Assembly: GCF_000376945.1 (NCBI RefSeq)
Contig: NZ_AQXU01000025.1
Span: 434,001-498,000, forward strand
Length of the DNA: 64,000 nucleotides
From: Leeia oryzae DSM 17879
GTDB taxonomy: Bacteria > Pseudomonadota > Gammaproteobacteria > Burkholderiales > Leeiaceae
Direction of reading: 5' to 3'
Positions 20,306 through 39,242 of the stretch are shown here, in pieces. Below the pieces are notes generated by a model that saw only the letters and a list, made by a program, of their open reading frames with translations, did not search any database and was not told where the DNA came from. How positions within the stretch are numbered: the first letter of the stretch is position 1; each line of letters starts with the position of its first letter. A program made the translations under genes and the position numbers.

Positions 20306-21202
20306 TTATACGTCGTCCGATGCTGACCAGCCTTCACGATTACCGGCATGAATGACGGTATCCGTACTGACAATGTCACCGGCCCCGATCGGCGTCAGAT
20401 CACGAATGGCATTGTAATACTGGCTGAGCCGCTCCAGGTCCTGGGTAGCGGCAAACAGTGTTTCAAAACTGTCGATGACAAAATAGGTTTTCTGGAAGGT
20501 ATCGATCCGGTAGCGGGTTTGCAGAATGCGCTGCATGTCAAAAGCGATGCGGTTCGGGCTGTCGCTTTCCAGACTGTAGATGGATTCTGTGCGGCTGGAC
20601 ATGATGCCGGCCCCGTAGATGCGGGTGCCGTCCGGGGTGGCGATCAGGCCAAACTCCACCGTGTACCAGTAAAGACGGGCCAGCATGTGAAGTGCATTCT
20701 GGCTTTTGGCCGCCAGGCCTGCCACGCCGTAGGCCTGGATATAATCGGCAAAAATCGGGTTGGCCAGCAACGGTACATGGCCAAACAGATCATGAAATAC
20801 ATCCGGCTCTTGCAGGTAATCGATCTGGTTAGCTTCCCGCAGCCACCAGGTCACTGGGAAGCGACGATTGGCCAGATGCTCGAAAAACACGTCATCCGGA
20901 ATCAGCCCGTGCACGGCCACAATCTGCCAGCCGGTAGCGGCTCCAAGGGCTTGGTTCAGCTCATCAAATACCGGCACGCGATGGGGTTCGATCGGCAGGC
21001 GGGTCAGGCCTTCCATGAACTCGTTGCAAGCGCGCCCCTGGAGCACCTCCATCTGGCGAGCATACAGCTGGGACCATACCTGATGGTCTTCATCGGTGTA
21101 ACGATCTAGCGGCTGAGGCAAGGTAAAGTCTGCCGCCAGCACCAGGCCCTGATTCTTACGGACGGTAATGTCAGGGGCTTGAAACTCTGTCATGTCGTTC
21201 AT
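20306..21202 (-). CDS. phhA: Phenylalanine-4-hydroxylase
   Basis: A 298-aa iron- and tetrahydropterin-dependent enzyme converting phenylalanine to tyrosine. Iron ligands are visible as the two His in FHDLFGHVPLL and the Glu in YWYTVEFGLI. PDVFHDLFGH and SSRTESIYSLES are family blocks; it is the short bacterial form with no regulatory ACT domain. A CAGGAGAC Shine-Dalgarno precedes the ATG. Tyrosine made here can feed the degradation genes at 35593-39242. Confidence 0.96.
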   Translation of the reverse strand: MNDMTEFQAPDITVRKNQGLVLAADFTLPQPLDRYTDEDHQVWSQLYARQMEVLQGRACNEFMEGLTRLPIEPHRVPVFDELNQALGAATGWQIVAVHGLIPDDVFFEHLANRRFPVTWWLREANQIDYLQEPDVFHDLFGHVPLLANPIFADYIQAYGVAGLAAKSQNALHMLARLYWYTVEFGLIATPDGTRIYGAGIMSSRTESIYSLESDSPNRIAFDMQRILQTRYRIDTFQKTYFVIDSFETLFAATQDLERLSQYYNAIRDLTPIGAGDIVSTDTVIHAGNREGWSASDDV

Positions 21203-21324: not shown

Positions 21325-21352
21325 AATGCACGCAAATCATAAATCATGCATT
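21325..21352. promoter_or_regulatory. Candidate Lrp-type operator between phhA and its divergent regulator
   Basis: An AT-rich inverted repeat, AATGCA (21325-21330) and TGCATT (21347-21352), lies 46 nt upstream of the Lrp-type gene. Lrp/AsnC proteins bind such AT-rich dyads. It is suggestive only. Confidence 0.4.
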
Positions 21353-21397
21353 ATTCCCGCAAGCCATTTGTCGGACCCGATTTTGCGGAGTATCAGC

Positions 21398-21865
21398 ATG
21401 CAACTTGACCGTTTTGATTACCAGATTCTGCAGGCCCTGCAAAAAGATGCCCGCATGCCGCACCAGAAACTCTCCCAGATCATCCCGCTGTCTTCTTCGC
21501 AGATTGGCCGGCGCATCCAGCAACTGGAAGAAGCCGGTGTGATTTCTGCCTACCGGGCCGAGCTGCAACCCGAAGCCATGGGGCTTGGGGTACTGGCGTT
21601 CATGAATGTCTGTCTGGAGCGTCATGGCGAAAAAGCCATCAAGGACTTTATTCAGGGCATCGATGCCATTCCGGAGATACTGGAAGCCCATGCCGTGACC
21701 GGAGATGCCGACTACGCCTTGCGCGTGGTCGCGGCAGATTTGCCATCACTCTCGCGTTTTGTCATGCACAAACTCCTTGCCATGGATTGTGTCCGCAGCG
21801 TGAAATCCAGCGTAGCACTTGAACAGGTCAAGCGCTTTAGCGGTCTGCCTAACCCCGCCCACTGA
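21398..21865 (+). CDS. Lrp/AsnC-family transcriptional regulator
   Basis: A 155-aa protein with an N-terminal winged helix (DRFDYQILQALQKDARMPHQKLSQII, SSSQIGRRIQQLEEAGVI) and a C-terminal ligand-binding RAM domain (residues about 65-145, with HAVTGDADYALRV). The ATG at 21398 is preferred over 21326 because the HTH domain starts there and GGAG precedes it. It is divergent from phhA, so it is a candidate amino-acid-responsive regulator of the phh operon, in place of the sigma54-dependent PhhR known in Pseudomonas. Confidence 0.9.
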   Translation: MQLDRFDYQILQALQKDARMPHQKLSQIIPLSSSQIGRRIQQLEEAGVISAYRAELQPEAMGLGVLAFMNVCLERHGEKAIKDFIQGIDAIPEILEAHAVTGDADYALRVVAADLPSLSRFVMHKLLAMDCVRSVKSSVALEQVKRFSGLPNPAH

Positions 21866-31374: not shown

Positions 31375-33324
31375 ATGAACACACCCGTATGGACGCCCCG
31401 CCCGGAGGCCATTGCAGCGGCAAACCTGACCCGCTTCCGGACGTTTGTCGAACAACGACAGCATCTCTTGCTACCTGATTATCCTTCGCTATACGACTGG
31501 TCTGTGGCCCAGCCAGCCGCCTTCTGGGAGAGTGTCTGGCAGTTCTGTGGCGTCACCGCACAAAAGCCATGGGACAGCGTACTGGAAGATGGCGACCGGA
31601 TGCCGGGTGCCCGCTGGTTTGGTGGCAGCAAGCTCAACTATGCAGAAAACCTGTTGCGCTACCGTGATGACCGGACCGCGCTGGTCTTCAAGGGTGAAGA
31701 CAAAATCGAGAGTTGTTACAGTTACGCCGAGCTGTATGCCGAAGTCGCCCGCGTCGCCCATGCCTTGCGGCAGACGGGTGTAACCGCCGGCGACCGGGTA
31801 GCCGGCTTCATGCCCAACACCCCGCAGACCATCATTGCCATGCTGGCCACTGCCAGCCTCGGAGCCATCTGGTCGTCCTGCTCGCCAGACTTCGGCACTC
31901 AGGGCGTGCTGGACCGTTTTAGCCAGATTCAGCCCAAAGTGCTGTTTGCGGTAGACGGTTACTATTACAACGGCAAGACCCTTGATTGCCTGGACAAGAT
32001 CCGCACCATTACTGCACAGCTGCCAGACCTGCAACAGTTGGTCATCGTCCCGTACATTCAAAGCCAGGCATCAATTGATGACCTGCCGCACGCCAGCCGC
32101 TGGGCGGACTTCTGCCATAACACGGCCACCGACATCGACTTTGTACCGTGCGATTTCCACCATCCGCTGTTCATCATGTATTCGTCCGGTACCACCGGCA
32201 TTCCCAAATGCATCATCCATTCAGTCGGCGGCACCCTGCTGCAGCATCTGAAAGAACATGTCCTGCATGGCGACCTGACCCGGGACGACACGCTGTTCTT
32301 CTTTACCACCTGTGGCTGGATGATGTGGAACTGGCTGGTATCCGGGCTGGCGGTCGGCGCCACGCTGGCGCTGTATGACGGCTCACCCTTCTACCCGTCT
32401 GAACGGGTGTTGTGGGACTATGCCGAAGAAGCCGGTTTTACCACCTTTGGGACTAGCGCCAAATACCTGTCGGCACTGGAAAAAACCGGCTTCAAGCCGA
32501 GGGAGCACTATGAGCTGGCCCGTCTCAAGGCCATTTGTTCAACCGGTTCGCCCTTGCTGCCGGAGAGCTATGATTATGTGTACCGGGATATCAAACAGGA
32601 TGTCCGGCTGAGCTCCATGTCGGGCGGCACGGATATCTTGTCTTGCTTTGCGCTGGGCAACCCGGTGCTGCCGGTCTATCGCTCCGCCTTGCAGTGTCGC
32701 GGCCTTGGCATGGCGGTAGAAATCTTCAATGATGCCGGCCAGCCGGTACATGAAGAAAAAGGCGAACTGGTTTGTACCAAGCCGTTCCCTTCCATGCCGG
32801 TCGGTTTCTGGAACGACCCGGGCAACCAGAAATACCATGATGCGTATTTCGGACGTTTCCCCAATATCTGGTGTCATGGCGACTATGCCGAACTGACCAA
32901 AGAAGACGGCATCATCATCTACGGGCGTTCGGATACCATCCTGAACCCTGGCGGGGTACGTATCGGCACGGCAGAAATCTATCGCCAGGTCGAGACGTTT
33001 GCGGAAGTGATGGAGTCCATGGCGGTGGGACAACAATGGGATGGCGACGAGCGGGTTATCCTGTTTGTGCGCATGCAGCCAGGATACACACTGGATGATG
33101 ACCTGGTTCGGCGCATCAAGCACAAGATCCGCGACGGGGCGAGCCCGCGGCACGTACCCGCCAAGATCATCGCGGTGGCCGATTTGCCACGTACCATCAG
33201 TGGCAAGATTGTCGAACTGGCGGTACGGAACGTGATTCACGGCCTGCCGGTAAAAAACACCGATTCGCTGGCCAACCCCGAAGCCCTGAAACTGTTTGAG
33301 AATCTGGACAGTCTGGCCAGCTAA
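31375..33324 (+). CDS. Acetoacetyl-CoA synthetase (acetoacetate-CoA ligase)
   Basis: A 649-aa ANL-family adenylating enzyme activating acetoacetate to acetoacetyl-CoA. It opens with an acyl-CoA-synthetase N-terminal domain (LYDWSVAQPAAFWESVWQF) and has the P-loop YSSGTTGIPKCIIHSVGG, FFFTTCGWMMWNWLVSGL, MSGGTDI and the catalytic lysine in RTISGKIVEL. Length and GTTGIPKCIIH match AacS rather than acetate CoA ligase. Acetoacetate is one end product of the tyrosine pathway encoded downstream, although those genes are a separate transcript. Confidence 0.93.
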   Translation: MNTPVWTPRPEAIAAANLTRFRTFVEQRQHLLLPDYPSLYDWSVAQPAAFWESVWQFCGVTAQKPWDSVLEDGDRMPGARWFGGSKLNYAENLLRYRDDRTALVFKGEDKIESCYSYAELYAEVARVAHALRQTGVTAGDRVAGFMPNTPQTIIAMLATASLGAIWSSCSPDFGTQGVLDRFSQIQPKVLFAVDGYYYNGKTLDCLDKIRTITAQLPDLQQLVIVPYIQSQASIDDLPHASRWADFCHNTATDIDFVPCDFHHPLFIMYSSGTTGIPKCIIHSVGGTLLQHLKEHVLHGDLTRDDTLFFFTTCGWMMWNWLVSGLAVGATLALYDGSPFYPSERVLWDYAEEAGFTTFGTSAKYLSALEKTGFKPREHYELARLKAICSTGSPLLPESYDYVYRDIKQDVRLSSMSGGTDILSCFALGNPVLPVYRSALQCRGLGMAVEIFNDAGQPVHEEKGELVCTKPFPSMPVGFWNDPGNQKYHDAYFGRFPNIWCHGDYAELTKEDGIIIYGRSDTILNPGGVRIGTAEIYRQVETFAEVMESMAVGQQWDGDERVILFVRMQPGYTLDDDLVRRIKHKIRDGASPRHVPAKIIAVADLPRTISGKIVELAVRNVIHGLPVKNTDSLANPEALKLFENLDSLAS

Positions 33325-35592: not shown

Positions 35593-36582
35593 ATGAAACT
35601 AGCAAGCTTGAAACAGGGTGGCCGCGACGGCGCCCTCGTGGTGGTCTCCAAAGATTTGCGCCATGCCGTTGCGGTGCCGGATATCGCCCCGACCATGCAA
35701 TACGCCATGGATCACTGGTCTGACGTAAGCGGGCAGTTGCAAGCCGTATACGCAGCGCTAAACGCAGGTGAAGCCAGCGGCGCATTTACCTTTGACCAGA
35801 CCCAGTGCCACTCTCCCCTGCCGCGCGCCTACCAGTGGGCAGACGGCTCGGCGTATGTGAACCACGTTGAACTGGTACGCAAGGCACGCGGTGCCGAGAT
35901 GCCGCCCGAATTCTGGCACGATCCGCTGATGTATCAGGGTGGGTCAGACAGCTTTGTGCCGCCCCATAGCCCGATTGACGTACTGGACACTAGCTGGGGC
36001 GTGGATCTGGAAGGCGAAGTAGCCGTGATTACCGGCGACGTACCGATGGGCAGCACGGCGGCTCAGACCGCCAGCAGCATCCGCCTGCTGATGCTGGTCA
36101 ACGATGTCACCCTGCGCAACCTGATTCCGGCCGAGCTGGCCAAAGGCTTTGGCTTCTTCCAGTCCAAACCGGCAACGGCCTTTTCTCCGGTAGCCGTCAC
36201 CCCGGACGAACTGGGCAGCGACTGGCAGGACAGCCAGGTGAAACTGCCGTTGACCGTGCACGTGCGCGGTGAGCTGTTTGGCACCCCGGATTGCGGCACC
36301 GACATGGTGTTCAGCTTTGCCGATCTGGTGGCCCATGTGGCCAAGACCCGCGAGCTGGAAGCCGGGTCCATTGTCGGTTCCGGCACCATCTCTAATGTGG
36401 ACCGCAGCAAGGGCTCTGCCTGCCTGGTAGAACAACGCATGCTGGAAACCATTGAACACGGCCAGCCGAAGACCCCATATCTGAGTAATGGTGACCGGGT
36501 CCGTATTGAAATGTTCGACCGTCAGGGCCAGTCGATTTTCGGGGCCATTGATCAGACCGTGCGTGTGGTCGAGCGTCCGTAA
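35593..36582 (+). CDS. Fumarylacetoacetate hydrolase-family protein
   Basis: A 329-aa FAH-family enzyme. The metal site is formed by acidic residues in DTSWGVDLEGEVAVITGDV, and VNDVTLRNLIP and GSGTISNVDRSKGSACLVE are family motifs. It is the shorter FAH type found beside hppD and maiA in several gamma- and betaproteobacteria and probably cleaves fumarylacetoacetate to fumarate and acetoacetate. The ATG at 35593 has GAGGAAAA in front; ATG-less extension to 35557 is not supported. Confidence 0.85.
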   Translation: MKLASLKQGGRDGALVVVSKDLRHAVAVPDIAPTMQYAMDHWSDVSGQLQAVYAALNAGEASGAFTFDQTQCHSPLPRAYQWADGSAYVNHVELVRKARGAEMPPEFWHDPLMYQGGSDSFVPPHSPIDVLDTSWGVDLEGEVAVITGDVPMGSTAAQTASSIRLLMLVNDVTLRNLIPAELAKGFGFFQSKPATAFSPVAVTPDELGSDWQDSQVKLPLTVHVRGELFGTPDCGTDMVFSFADLVAHVAKTRELEAGSIVGSGTISNVDRSKGSACLVEQRMLETIEHGQPKTPYLSNGDRVRIEMFDRQGQSIFGAIDQTVRVVERP

Positions 36583-36814: not shown

Positions 36815-37891
36815 ATGGCTGACTTGTTTGACAACCCGATGGGCCTGATGGGCTTTGAATTTGTAGAGTTTGCATCCCCCACCCCGAACGTGATCGAGCC
36901 GGTTTTCGAGATGCTGGGTTTTACCAAAGTAGCTACCCACCGCTCCAAGGACGTAGACCTGTACCGTCAGGGCGATATCAACTTCATCCTGAACCGTGAA
37001 CCCCGCAGCGTGGCTGGCTATTTTGCCGCAGAACACGGTCCGTCGGCCTGTGGCATGGCGTTTCGCGTGCGCGACAGCCACAAAGCCTACAACCGTGCGC
37101 TGGAACTGGGTGCCCAGCCGATCGACATCCCGACCGGCCCGATGGAACTGAAACTGCCAGCCATCAAGGGCATTGGCGGCGCACCGCTGTACCTGATCGA
37201 CCGCTTTGAAGACGGCAAGTCCATCTACGATATCGACTTCAAGTTTATCGACGGCGTAGACCGCCACCCCAAAGGCCACGGCTTTAGCATCATCGACCAC
37301 CTGACCCACAACGTTTACCGTGGCCGCATGAAGTTCTGGGGCGACTTCTACGAAACCATCTTTAACTTCCGTGAAATCCGCTACTTTGACATCAAGGGCG
37401 AATATACCGGCCTGACCTCACGCGCCATGACCGCACCAGACGGCAAGATCCGCATTCCGCTGAACGAAGAAGGCGGCAACGGCAAAGGTCAGATTGAAGA
37501 ATACCTGATGCAATACAACGGCGAAGGCATCCAGCACATTGCCCTGCTGACGGATGACCTGCTAGCCACCTGGGACAGCATGAAGAAAGCCGGCGTGCCG
37601 TTCATGACGGCACCACCAGCCACCTACTATGAGATGCTGGACAGCCGCCTGCCAGGCCATGGCGAGAATCCTTCCGAACTGCAGATGCGCGGTATCTTGC
37701 TGGATGGCTCAACCGAGAATGGCCAAAAGCGCCTGCTGCTGCAGATTTTCTCGGAAACCTTGCTGGGGCCGGTGTTCTTCGAGTTCATCCAGCGCAAGGG
37801 CGACGAAGGTTTTGGCGAAGGCAACTTCAAGGCACTGTTCGAATCCATTGAACGAGACCAGATCCGCCGCGGCGTGCTGGAAAACGCATAA
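36815..37891 (+). CDS. hppD: 4-Hydroxyphenylpyruvate dioxygenase
   Basis: A 358-aa non-haem iron enzyme converting 4-hydroxyphenylpyruvate to homogentisate. Iron ligands are the His in [12 protein letters not shown], the His in [13 protein letters not shown] and the Glu in [20 protein letters not shown], all in the C-terminal half of the two-module VOC fold. Start ATG 36815 is preceded by AGAGGAGA. The next gene begins 10 nt after its stop codon. Confidence 0.96.
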
Positions 37892-37901
37892 GGAAGCCGT
37901 C

Positions 37902-38471
37902 ATGACCCTAGATACCCTGAAAATCGACCGCATCCACCATGTGGCGTATCGCTGCAAGGACGCCAAGGAAACCGTGCTCTGGTACCAGAAGATGCTGAAG
38001 ATGGACTTTGTGCTGGCGATTGCCGAAGACCTGGTGCCGTCGACCAAAGAACCGGACCCGTACATGCACATTTTCATGGATGCCGGTAACGGTAACGTAC
38101 TGGCCTTCTTTGAACTGCCGACCAAGCCGGAAATGGGTCGCGACCCGAACACCCCCAACTGGGTACAGCATATCGCCTTCAAGGTGAAAGATCGCGAGAC
38201 CCTACTGGGCTTTAAAACGCACCTGGAAGAAAACGGCGTGAAGGTGCTGGGCGTGACCGACCATGGCATTTTCCATTCGATCTATTTCTTTGACCCGAAT
38301 GGTCACCGTCTGGAACTGGCCTGCCCGGACGAAAATGAAACCGAGCAGCTCAAACAGCTGGACAGCGTGAAATGGGCGATGTTAGAAGAATGGTCGCAAA
38401 CCAAGCGCGCACCAAAGCATGCTGCCTTCCTGCACCAGCAGGAATTTGCCGACATTACCCCGGCCAAGTAA
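37902..38471 (+). CDS. VOC-superfamily metalloenzyme in the tyrosine cluster, role unknown
   Basis: A 189-aa two-module VOC protein. Candidate metal ligands are His13 (IHHVAY), Glu71 (LAFFELP), His90 (WVQHIAF) and Glu138 (HRLELACP), the spacing seen in glyoxalase I-like enzymes. HSIYFFDPNGHRLEL (125-139) resembles extradiol dioxygenase and FosA/B-type motifs too. It is the last gene before a terminator and is coupled to hppD. The cluster lacks hmgA, so a part in homogentisate ring opening, or in a later step, is possible; a GSH- or lactoyl-type isomerase is the alternative. It is not a fragment of hppD. Confidence 0.85.
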   Translation: MTLDTLKIDRIHHVAYRCKDAKETVLWYQKMLKMDFVLAIAEDLVPSTKEPDPYMHIFMDAGNGNVLAFFELPTKPEMGRDPNTPNWVQHIAFKVKDRETLLGFKTHLEENGVKVLGVTDHGIFHSIYFFDPNGHRLELACPDENETEQLKQLDSVKWAMLEEWSQTKRAPKHAAFLHQQEFADITPAK

Positions 38472-38487: not shown

Positions 38488-38528
38488 CCGTTATCCGGTG
38501 CCATCCCCTCACCGGATAACGGCTTTTT
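38488..38528 (+). terminator. Intrinsic terminator after the hppD-VOC operon
   Basis: 13-bp stem CCGTTATCCGGTG / CACCGGATAACGG (38488-38500, 38510-38522) followed by CTTTTT. It separates maiA from the hppD transcript. Confidence 0.92.
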
Positions 38529-38594: not shown

Positions 38595-39242
38595 ATGGAA
38601 CTCTATACCTACTTCCGATCTTCCGCCGCCTACCGGGTACGTATCGCCCTTAACCTGAAAGGCGTGCAGGCCGAGTACCAGTATGTGCATCTGCTCAAAG
38701 ACGGCGGCCAGCAGCACCAGCCCGCCTACCAGCAGCTCAACCCCAACGAAACCGTGCCGACACTGGTCACCGAAGACGGTGCCATCACCCAGTCGCTGGC
38801 CATTTGCGAATACCTGGAAGAGCGCTACCCCAACCCGCCGCTACTGCCGGTCCACAGCATCGACCGCGCCTTTGTGCGCAGCATTGCCCAGACCATCGCC
38901 TGCGACATCCACCCCATCAACAACCTGCGGGTATTGCAATACCTGACCGGTACGCTTGGCATCTCCGAAGAACAGAAGTCGCAATGGTACGCCCACTGGG
39001 TACAACACGGCCTGACCGCCCTGGAAGCCCTGCTGACCAACCGTGATACCACGGGTCTGTGCTGTCTGGGCGACACTCCCACCCTGGCCGACCTGTGCCT
39101 GATCCCCCAGCTCTACAACGCCCGCCGCTTCAATATCGACCTTACCCCCTACCCGACACTGGTGCGGATTGATGCCCATTGCCAGACCTTGAGTGCATTT
39201 GCAGAGGCGGCACCAGAGAAGCAGGTAGATGCAGCAGTATAA
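38595..39242 (+). CDS. maiA: Maleylacetoacetate isomerase (zeta-class GST)
   Basis: A 215-aa glutathione-dependent isomerase converting maleylacetoacetate to fumarylacetoacetate. The zeta-class active-site motif SSAAYRVRIALNLKG (usually SSCSxRVRIAL) is at residues 9-23, followed by NPNETVPTLV and SLAICEYLEERYP in the thioredoxin fold. The second catalytic Cys of many zeta GSTs is replaced by Ala here. A GGAG Shine-Dalgarno precedes it; since a terminator lies upstream it needs its own promoter. Confidence 0.94.
   Translation: MELYTYFRSSAAYRVRIALNLKGVQAEYQYVHLLKDGGQQHQPAYQQLNPNETVPTLVTEDGAITQSLAICEYLEERYPNPPLLPVHSIDRAFVRSIAQTIACDIHPINNLRVLQYLTGTLGISEEQKSQWYAHWVQHGLTALEALLTNRDTTGLCCLGDTPTLADLCLIPQLYNARRFNIDLTPYPTLVRIDAHCQTLSAFAEAAPEKQVDAAV

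Follow-up and report, generated by a model that had tools for sequence, protein, structure and literature searches.

The question raised by this locus is which enzyme opens the ring of homogentisate, a step of tyrosine breakdown whose loss causes alkaptonuria in people. In the 64-kb stretch of Leeia oryzae DSM 17879 DNA that was analyzed (the window), candidates were found for all of the steps looked for between phenylalanine and fumarate plus acetoacetate (tyrosine transaminase was outside the set), with the exception of homogentisate cleavage. Entry from phenylalanine is represented by an open reading frame (ORF) for phenylalanine 4-hydroxylase (phhA; positions 20306 to 21202, minus strand; PF00351, E value of 1.2e-49). 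Acetoacetate-CoA ligase, which consumes acetoacetate from the pathway, is encoded on the plus strand (31375 to 33324; TIGR01217, 935.5 bits; cut-off, 520.9). The same strand carries fah, for a member of the fumarylacetoacetate hydrolase family (35593 to 36582, with the ATG at 35593 after AGAGGA; PF01557, 125 bits, and PF18288), followed by hppD, for 4-hydroxyphenylpyruvate dioxygenase (HPPD), the homogentisate producer (36815 to 37891, with the start assigned by ATG and ribosome-binding site; TIGR01263, 400.8 bits; cut-off, 277), a gene for a 189-amino-acid VOC-fold protein (37902 to 38471), and, beyond a terminator, maiA, for maleylacetoacetate isomerase (38595 to 39242; TIGR01262, 297.6 bits; cut-off, 171.05). 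An ORF at 21326 to 21865 (plus strand) diverges from phhA and, as judged by eye, resembles an Lrp/AsnC-type regulator. A promoter scan found no promoter, and a tRNA scan of the window found no tRNA gene.

The initial annotation had described the VOC gene as coupled to hppD and located before the operon terminator, and both features were found. A gap of 10 bp separates the gene from the end of hppD (37891), and the gap between fah and hppD is 232 bp. The VOC ORF is intact, with an ATG start, AAGGAAG upstream, and zero internal stops; it is conserved in a second Leeia species (92% identity) and is therefore not a chance ORF. Its 3' side carries a hairpin resembling an intrinsic terminator (38488 to 38522, plus strand), composed of a perfect 13-bp stem (38488 to 38500 paired with 38510 to 38522) and followed by the T run CTTTTTCTT. 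The hairpin has a folding energy of -22.1 kcal/mol (z score of -3.92) and was missing from a simple terminator scan because its loop is 9 nt long and the scan accepts loops of 3 to 8 nt.

The annotation had also remarked that the VOC gene lies where hmgA, encoding the cupin-type homogentisate dioxygenase, would be expected, and indeed neither the ordinary nor the divergent form of HmgA was found in the genome (99.97% complete). Searches of it returned zero matches to PF04209, zero to TIGR01015, and zero to the divergent HmgA protein of a sister species (G001) used as a query. As the two family models and the divergent query each came back empty, the idea of a missed hmgA was rejected. A search of the same genome for the VOC protein gave a single match. 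The divergent protein of the sister species is encoded between hppD and fah and matches TIGR01015 at 4.4e-20, far under the cut-off; its operon place suggests that it is a homogentisate dioxygenase. Such divergent cupin proteins (about 380 to 400 amino acids; TIGR01015 at roughly 1e-18 to 1e-28, far under the cut-off) were observed between hppD and fah in the sister species and elsewhere (L037, 1501 to 2367; L084, 9169 to 10314; L036, L038, L185, L186, and L189), and no NCBIfam model names them at an E value of ≤1e-30.

The VOC protein belongs to the VOC superfamily by its single PF00903 (Glyoxalase) stretch (57.1 bits; cut-off, 20.6). This general family was the only Pfam assignment, every NCBIfam model scored under its cut-off, and the cupin HmgA family (TIGR01015 and PF04209) was absent from the Pfam and NCBIfam matches. 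The top NCBIfam match was catechol 2,3-dioxygenase (TIGR03211, 37.3 of the 320.2 bits of its cut-off), to the C-terminal half of which residues 8 to 160 were aligned; glyoxalase I (TIGR00068) reached 19.3 of 120 bits. Among PDB chains searched with phmmer, the sole near sequence match was 9u42 (E value of 6.3e-85; next match, 9.3e-9), which is identical to the VOC protein at 126 of 178 residues (71%). This entry, released on 2025-07-23, is entitled "Crystal Structure of Homogentisate 1,2-Dioxygenase from Acinetobacter in Complex with Zn ion." The VOC protein is orthologous to the deposited enzyme, and the label "uncharacterized" that it initially received is thus outdated, since the structure of an ortholog has been solved. 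As a counterpoint to a dioxygenase reading, the function of 9u42 is taken from the depositor's title, its molecule is named "Glyoxalase," and the bound metal is Zn rather than Fe.

Eight candidate metal and acid/base residues (H12, H13, H56, E71, H90, H121, Y128, and E138) are common to the VOC protein and 9u42. Seven of these are unchanged across all 99 aligned members, and position 71 is E in 96 members and D in 3. In an alignment with 1mpy, a type I extradiol dioxygenase, H90, H121, Y128, and E138 fall opposite H, H, Y, and E, respectively; the putative roles of single residues given below derive from this alignment and from the general features of that enzyme type. H13, E71, H90, and E138 occupy the places where they were first noted, and the segment HSIYFFDPNGHR, which had been likened to extradiol dioxygenases, is present from residue 125. 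More distant homologs were observed in two HPPD-bearing genomes without HmgA (L078 in G050, 46%; L172 in G282, 43%), the first with D at position 71, and may either do the same reaction or have a sister function.

An AlphaFold2 model of the VOC protein, built on 33 aligned sequences, had a mean pLDDT of 84.2, with the linker between its two modules (residues 79 to 84) under 50. Its first Foldseek match was again 9u42 (E value of 7.4e-24), and the monomer model superposed poorly on the crystal chain (TMq of 0.43; rmsd of 17.4), possibly because the modules are placed differently, as they are in swapped VOC dimers. VIA-align ranked methylmalonyl-CoA epimerases first (Z of 12.9), followed by HPPD (11.8), extradiol dioxygenases (10.8), and PcpA (4huz; Z of 10.0, rmsd of 3.4, with 157 aligned residues spanning residues 3 to 317 of 4huz); 9u42, though first in Foldseek, was not among its 50 rows. 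With epimerases, HPPD, and dioxygenases mixed in this ranking, the function cannot be read from the fold alone.

The occurrence of VOC was compared with that of HmgA across genomes. VOC was counted as present at an E value of ≤1e-37 and HPPD when over its cut-off. Among 60 genomes of relatives, 16 had HPPD; HmgA was found in 2 of the 8 with VOC (G004 and G053, partial at a contig end in the latter) and in all 8 without it (3 in the divergent form). In a class-level sample of 274 genomes, 41 had HPPD, and HmgA occurred in 0 of 9 with VOC versus 30 of 32 without it; 9 of these 30 had only the divergent form, one partial, and two genomes (G119 and G162) had neither VOC nor HmgA. The union comprises 55 HPPD-bearing genomes, as G000 and G050 occur in both samples, and has HmgA in 2 of 15 genomes with VOC versus 38 of 40 without it (Fisher P value of 7e-9, not to be taken literally because the genomes are related). 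When the divergent form was counted as absent, the P value for the class sample was 5e-4. VOC at this threshold was present without HPPD in three genomes, two with HmgA (G017 and G040) and one without (G207).

The two genes also exchange places in the operon. The order fah-hppD-VOC-maiA of the window recurs in L070; hppD-VOC-fah, with or without maiA, was found in 12 loci (L075, L091, L093 to L096, L102, L107, L114, and L175 to L177), and hppD-fah-VOC-maiA was found in 6 (L145, L158, L162, L163, L173, and L174). The cupin gene takes the corresponding slot in hppD-HmgA-fah loci (L085, L086, L182, L183, L184, and L188) and, in its divergent form, in L084, L088, L185, L186, and L189. Within the genus of the window, the slot is occupied by VOC in G000 and G002 and by the divergent HmgA in G001. 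One genome (G028) has hppD-fah-maiA without HmgA on one contig and a VOC gene adjoining an acetoacetate-CoA ligase gene on another.

On the basis of the kinship with 9u42, the absence of HmgA, the anti-correlation in two samples, the slot exchange, and the residue conservation, we consider the VOC protein very probably to be a homogentisate 1,2-dioxygenase, one with the VOC fold instead of the cupin fold. The non-orthologous replacement of homogentisate dioxygenase that had been raised as a possibility is thereby strongly supported. HppD would make homogentisate, the substrate of the VOC protein, which is predicted to hold a metal, probably Fe(II), through H13, H90, and E138. Homogentisate and O2 would bind at this metal, and the ring would be opened to yield maleylacetoacetate, with H121 and Y128 presumably standing where type I extradiol dioxygenases have their acid/base residues. 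The remaining steps would fall to MaiA and then to Fah. The catechol 2,3-dioxygenase match and the plasmid modules described below also speak for this reading. Weighing against it are the coexistence of VOC with HmgA in other genomes, the epimerases at the head of the VIA-align list, the poor superposition on 9u42, and the NCBIfam dioxygenase scores, which are far under their cut-offs.

The partners of the VOC gene bear on its substrate. Among 104 labeled rows, the nearest scored partner was a FAD monooxygenase (NF006002) in 50 and HppD in 25; 21 rows had zero scored partners within 2.5 kb, and six of these are distant paralogs. A division into a single hppD-linked clade and a single FAD-monooxygenase-linked clade was not supported, as mapping the labels takes 9 and 22 changes. 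The labels nevertheless cluster on the tree more than in shuffles, on a tree whose bootstrap is not settled and which has some long branches.

Strict exclusivity of VOC and HmgA was ruled out by named loci, genome searches, and an alphaproteobacterial sample. HmgA lies in the same locus as VOC in 22 of the 80 named loci, the top-scoring ones among at least 492 relatives. For the other 58 loci, 41 genomes were searched, many of them incomplete metagenome bins, and HmgA was detected in 20; in the 17 of these 41 with hppD beside VOC, it was detected in 6 and absent from 11. In 289 alphaproteobacterial genomes (the class of G361, a Ruegeria), counted regardless of HPPD, HmgA was present in 9 of 26 with VOC (4 divergent) versus 82 of 263 others (P value of 0.83). 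Clusters in Rhodobacterales and Hyphomicrobiales were observed to hold hmgA, fah, a FAD monooxygenase gene (NF006002 in L106), VOC, and maiA together (L106, L111, L112, L118, L129, and similar loci). Such a cluster may encode two homogentisate dioxygenases; in Rhodobacterales and in the alphaproteobacterial sample, VOC may be a second homogentisate isoenzyme or may act on another hydroquinone.

These observations bring in the alternative that has the most to be said for it, namely, that the VOC protein cleaves a related hydroquinone, such as the product of the FAD monooxygenase, with homogentisate as a side or shared substrate. The frequency of that monooxygenase as the nearest partner and the hmgA genes in many Rhodobacterales clusters favor this alternative, but in G000-like operons, as in the window, HppD is the sole hydroquinone maker seen beside VOC. 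In addition, the NF006002 monooxygenase precedes HmgA in two genomes (G012, L028 and L087; G030, L031 and L039) that have no VOC at an E value of ≤1e-37, which fits homogentisate as its product. We regard this alternative as improbable.

A second alternative casts the VOC protein as an isomerase, tautomerase, or other nonoxygenase helper of the pathway. Its residues H13, E71, H90, and E138 match the ligand pattern of glyoxalase I, and the top fold rows are methylmalonyl-CoA epimerases. The initial annotation held that the two-Glu site favored an isomerase, a view that was not supported. E71 does not speak against a dioxygenase because 9u42, titled as one, has it too; the glyoxalase I score is far below its cut-off; and an isomerase, MaiA, is encoded next door. 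This reading would also leave 13 of 15 VOC-bearing HPPD genomes without an enzyme that cleaves homogentisate. We rejected it on the family scores, the presence of MaiA, and 9u42, and we give it a very small chance of being correct.

In a third alternative, the VOC protein is a dead HmgA relative, and the pathway ends at homogentisate, which leaves as pyomelanin. A 2020 paper reports no hmgA in Acinetobacter baumannii AB4353, judges the gene in the VOC position inactive, and has homogentisate lost as pyomelanin (PMC7646211). Matched by position alone, that gene appears to correspond to the VOC gene of A. baumannii VB958 (L191), where fahA, maiA, VOC, and an IclR gene are in order and hppD is on the opposite strand; the present evidence therefore argues against that judgment of inactivity. 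For the VOC protein of the window to be a dead relative of HmgA is extremely unlikely, given that seven candidate active-site residues are invariant and that the gene retains as neighbors those for Fah, MaiA, and acetoacetate-CoA ligase, which have a use only once the ring has been opened. Of two further papers, one reports that Tn2006 in the gene it labels "hmgA" led to pyomelanin, which plasmid-borne hmgA abolished (PMC9431530), and in the other, the hmgA reference NC_016603.1:3098928-3099560 is 633 bp long with a 14-bp overlap with hmgB (PMC11945678). The maiA gene of VB958 has the same length and the same overlap, so the "hmgA" of the latter paper may be maiA. A literature search, with subscription papers mostly outside its coverage, did not find a paper on a VOC-type homogentisate enzyme. 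The idea that another, unrecognized enzyme of the genome cleaves homogentisate, for which the confinement of our candidates to HmgA types and VOC leaves room, is just as remote as that of a dead relative, since slot exchange and anti-correlation point to the VOC gene, of which the genome has a single match.

The VOC gene also occurs on plasmids. With tblastn, 31 of 72,556 records in a plasmid collection matched at an E value of ≤1e-30, some of them chromosome sized. A plasmid of Acinetobacter sp. NCu2D-2 (L192) carries fahA, maiA, VOC, CoA transferase A and B, and thiolase genes, with a FAD monooxygenase gene on the opposite strand and neither hppD nor hmgA within the 12.5 kb read. The conjugative IncFII plasmid of Enterobacter sp. 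JBIWA005 (L193) has the order VOC-MFS-FAH-maiA, and a Sphaerotilus plasmid has a FAD oxidoreductase gene, two small genes, VOC, and fahA. In these three regions and in VB958 (4 of 4), the gene is annotated as "VOC family protein." Tentatively, the VOC type could be a widespread second class with an origin independent of cupin HmgA, part of a cassette (hydroquinone-forming enzyme, VOC, Fah, and MaiA), also plasmid borne, that has repeatedly displaced HmgA; where both coexist, as in Rhodobacterales, VOC would have diverged toward another hydroquinone, one provided by the FAD monooxygenase that partners it.

Searches limited to cupin HmgA make genomes like that of L. oryzae look unable to open homogentisate. 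Naming the VOC enzyme would close the annotation gap left by Pfam, NCBIfam, and "VOC family protein" labels, and it would argue against Acinetobacter having only an inactive HmgA relative (PMC7646211).

Compared with known systems, the VOC protein shares its proposed reaction and its operon slot with cupin HmgA (TIGR01015 and PF04209), whose fold is unrelated and whose profile has about 430 positions, against 189 amino acids of VOC fold; the pair would be a clear example from nature of a single tyrosine breakdown step served by two unrelated folds. Type I extradiol dioxygenases (1mpy; TIGR03211) have two domains and act on catechol, whereas the VOC protein has one two-module domain and a hydroquinone as its proposed substrate. 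With glyoxalase I, it shares the fold and the H/E/H/E pattern, at the low family score given above. PcpA/LinE (4huz) and MhqO (3oaj) share the reaction type proposed here. The PcpA/LinE hydroquinone dioxygenases are chains of about 320 residues (317 in 4huz) with two such domains, a layout that differs from the single PF00903 stretch of the much shorter VOC protein; 3oaj was a weak sequence match (E value of 0.0025), and 4huz was not among the PDB sequence matches. In A. baumannii, the gene of the 9u42 type adjoins fahA and maiA, with hppD nearby, in a gene order that differs from that of the window. The VOC protein of L. oryzae would be a further case of this recently deposited, little-documented enzyme type.
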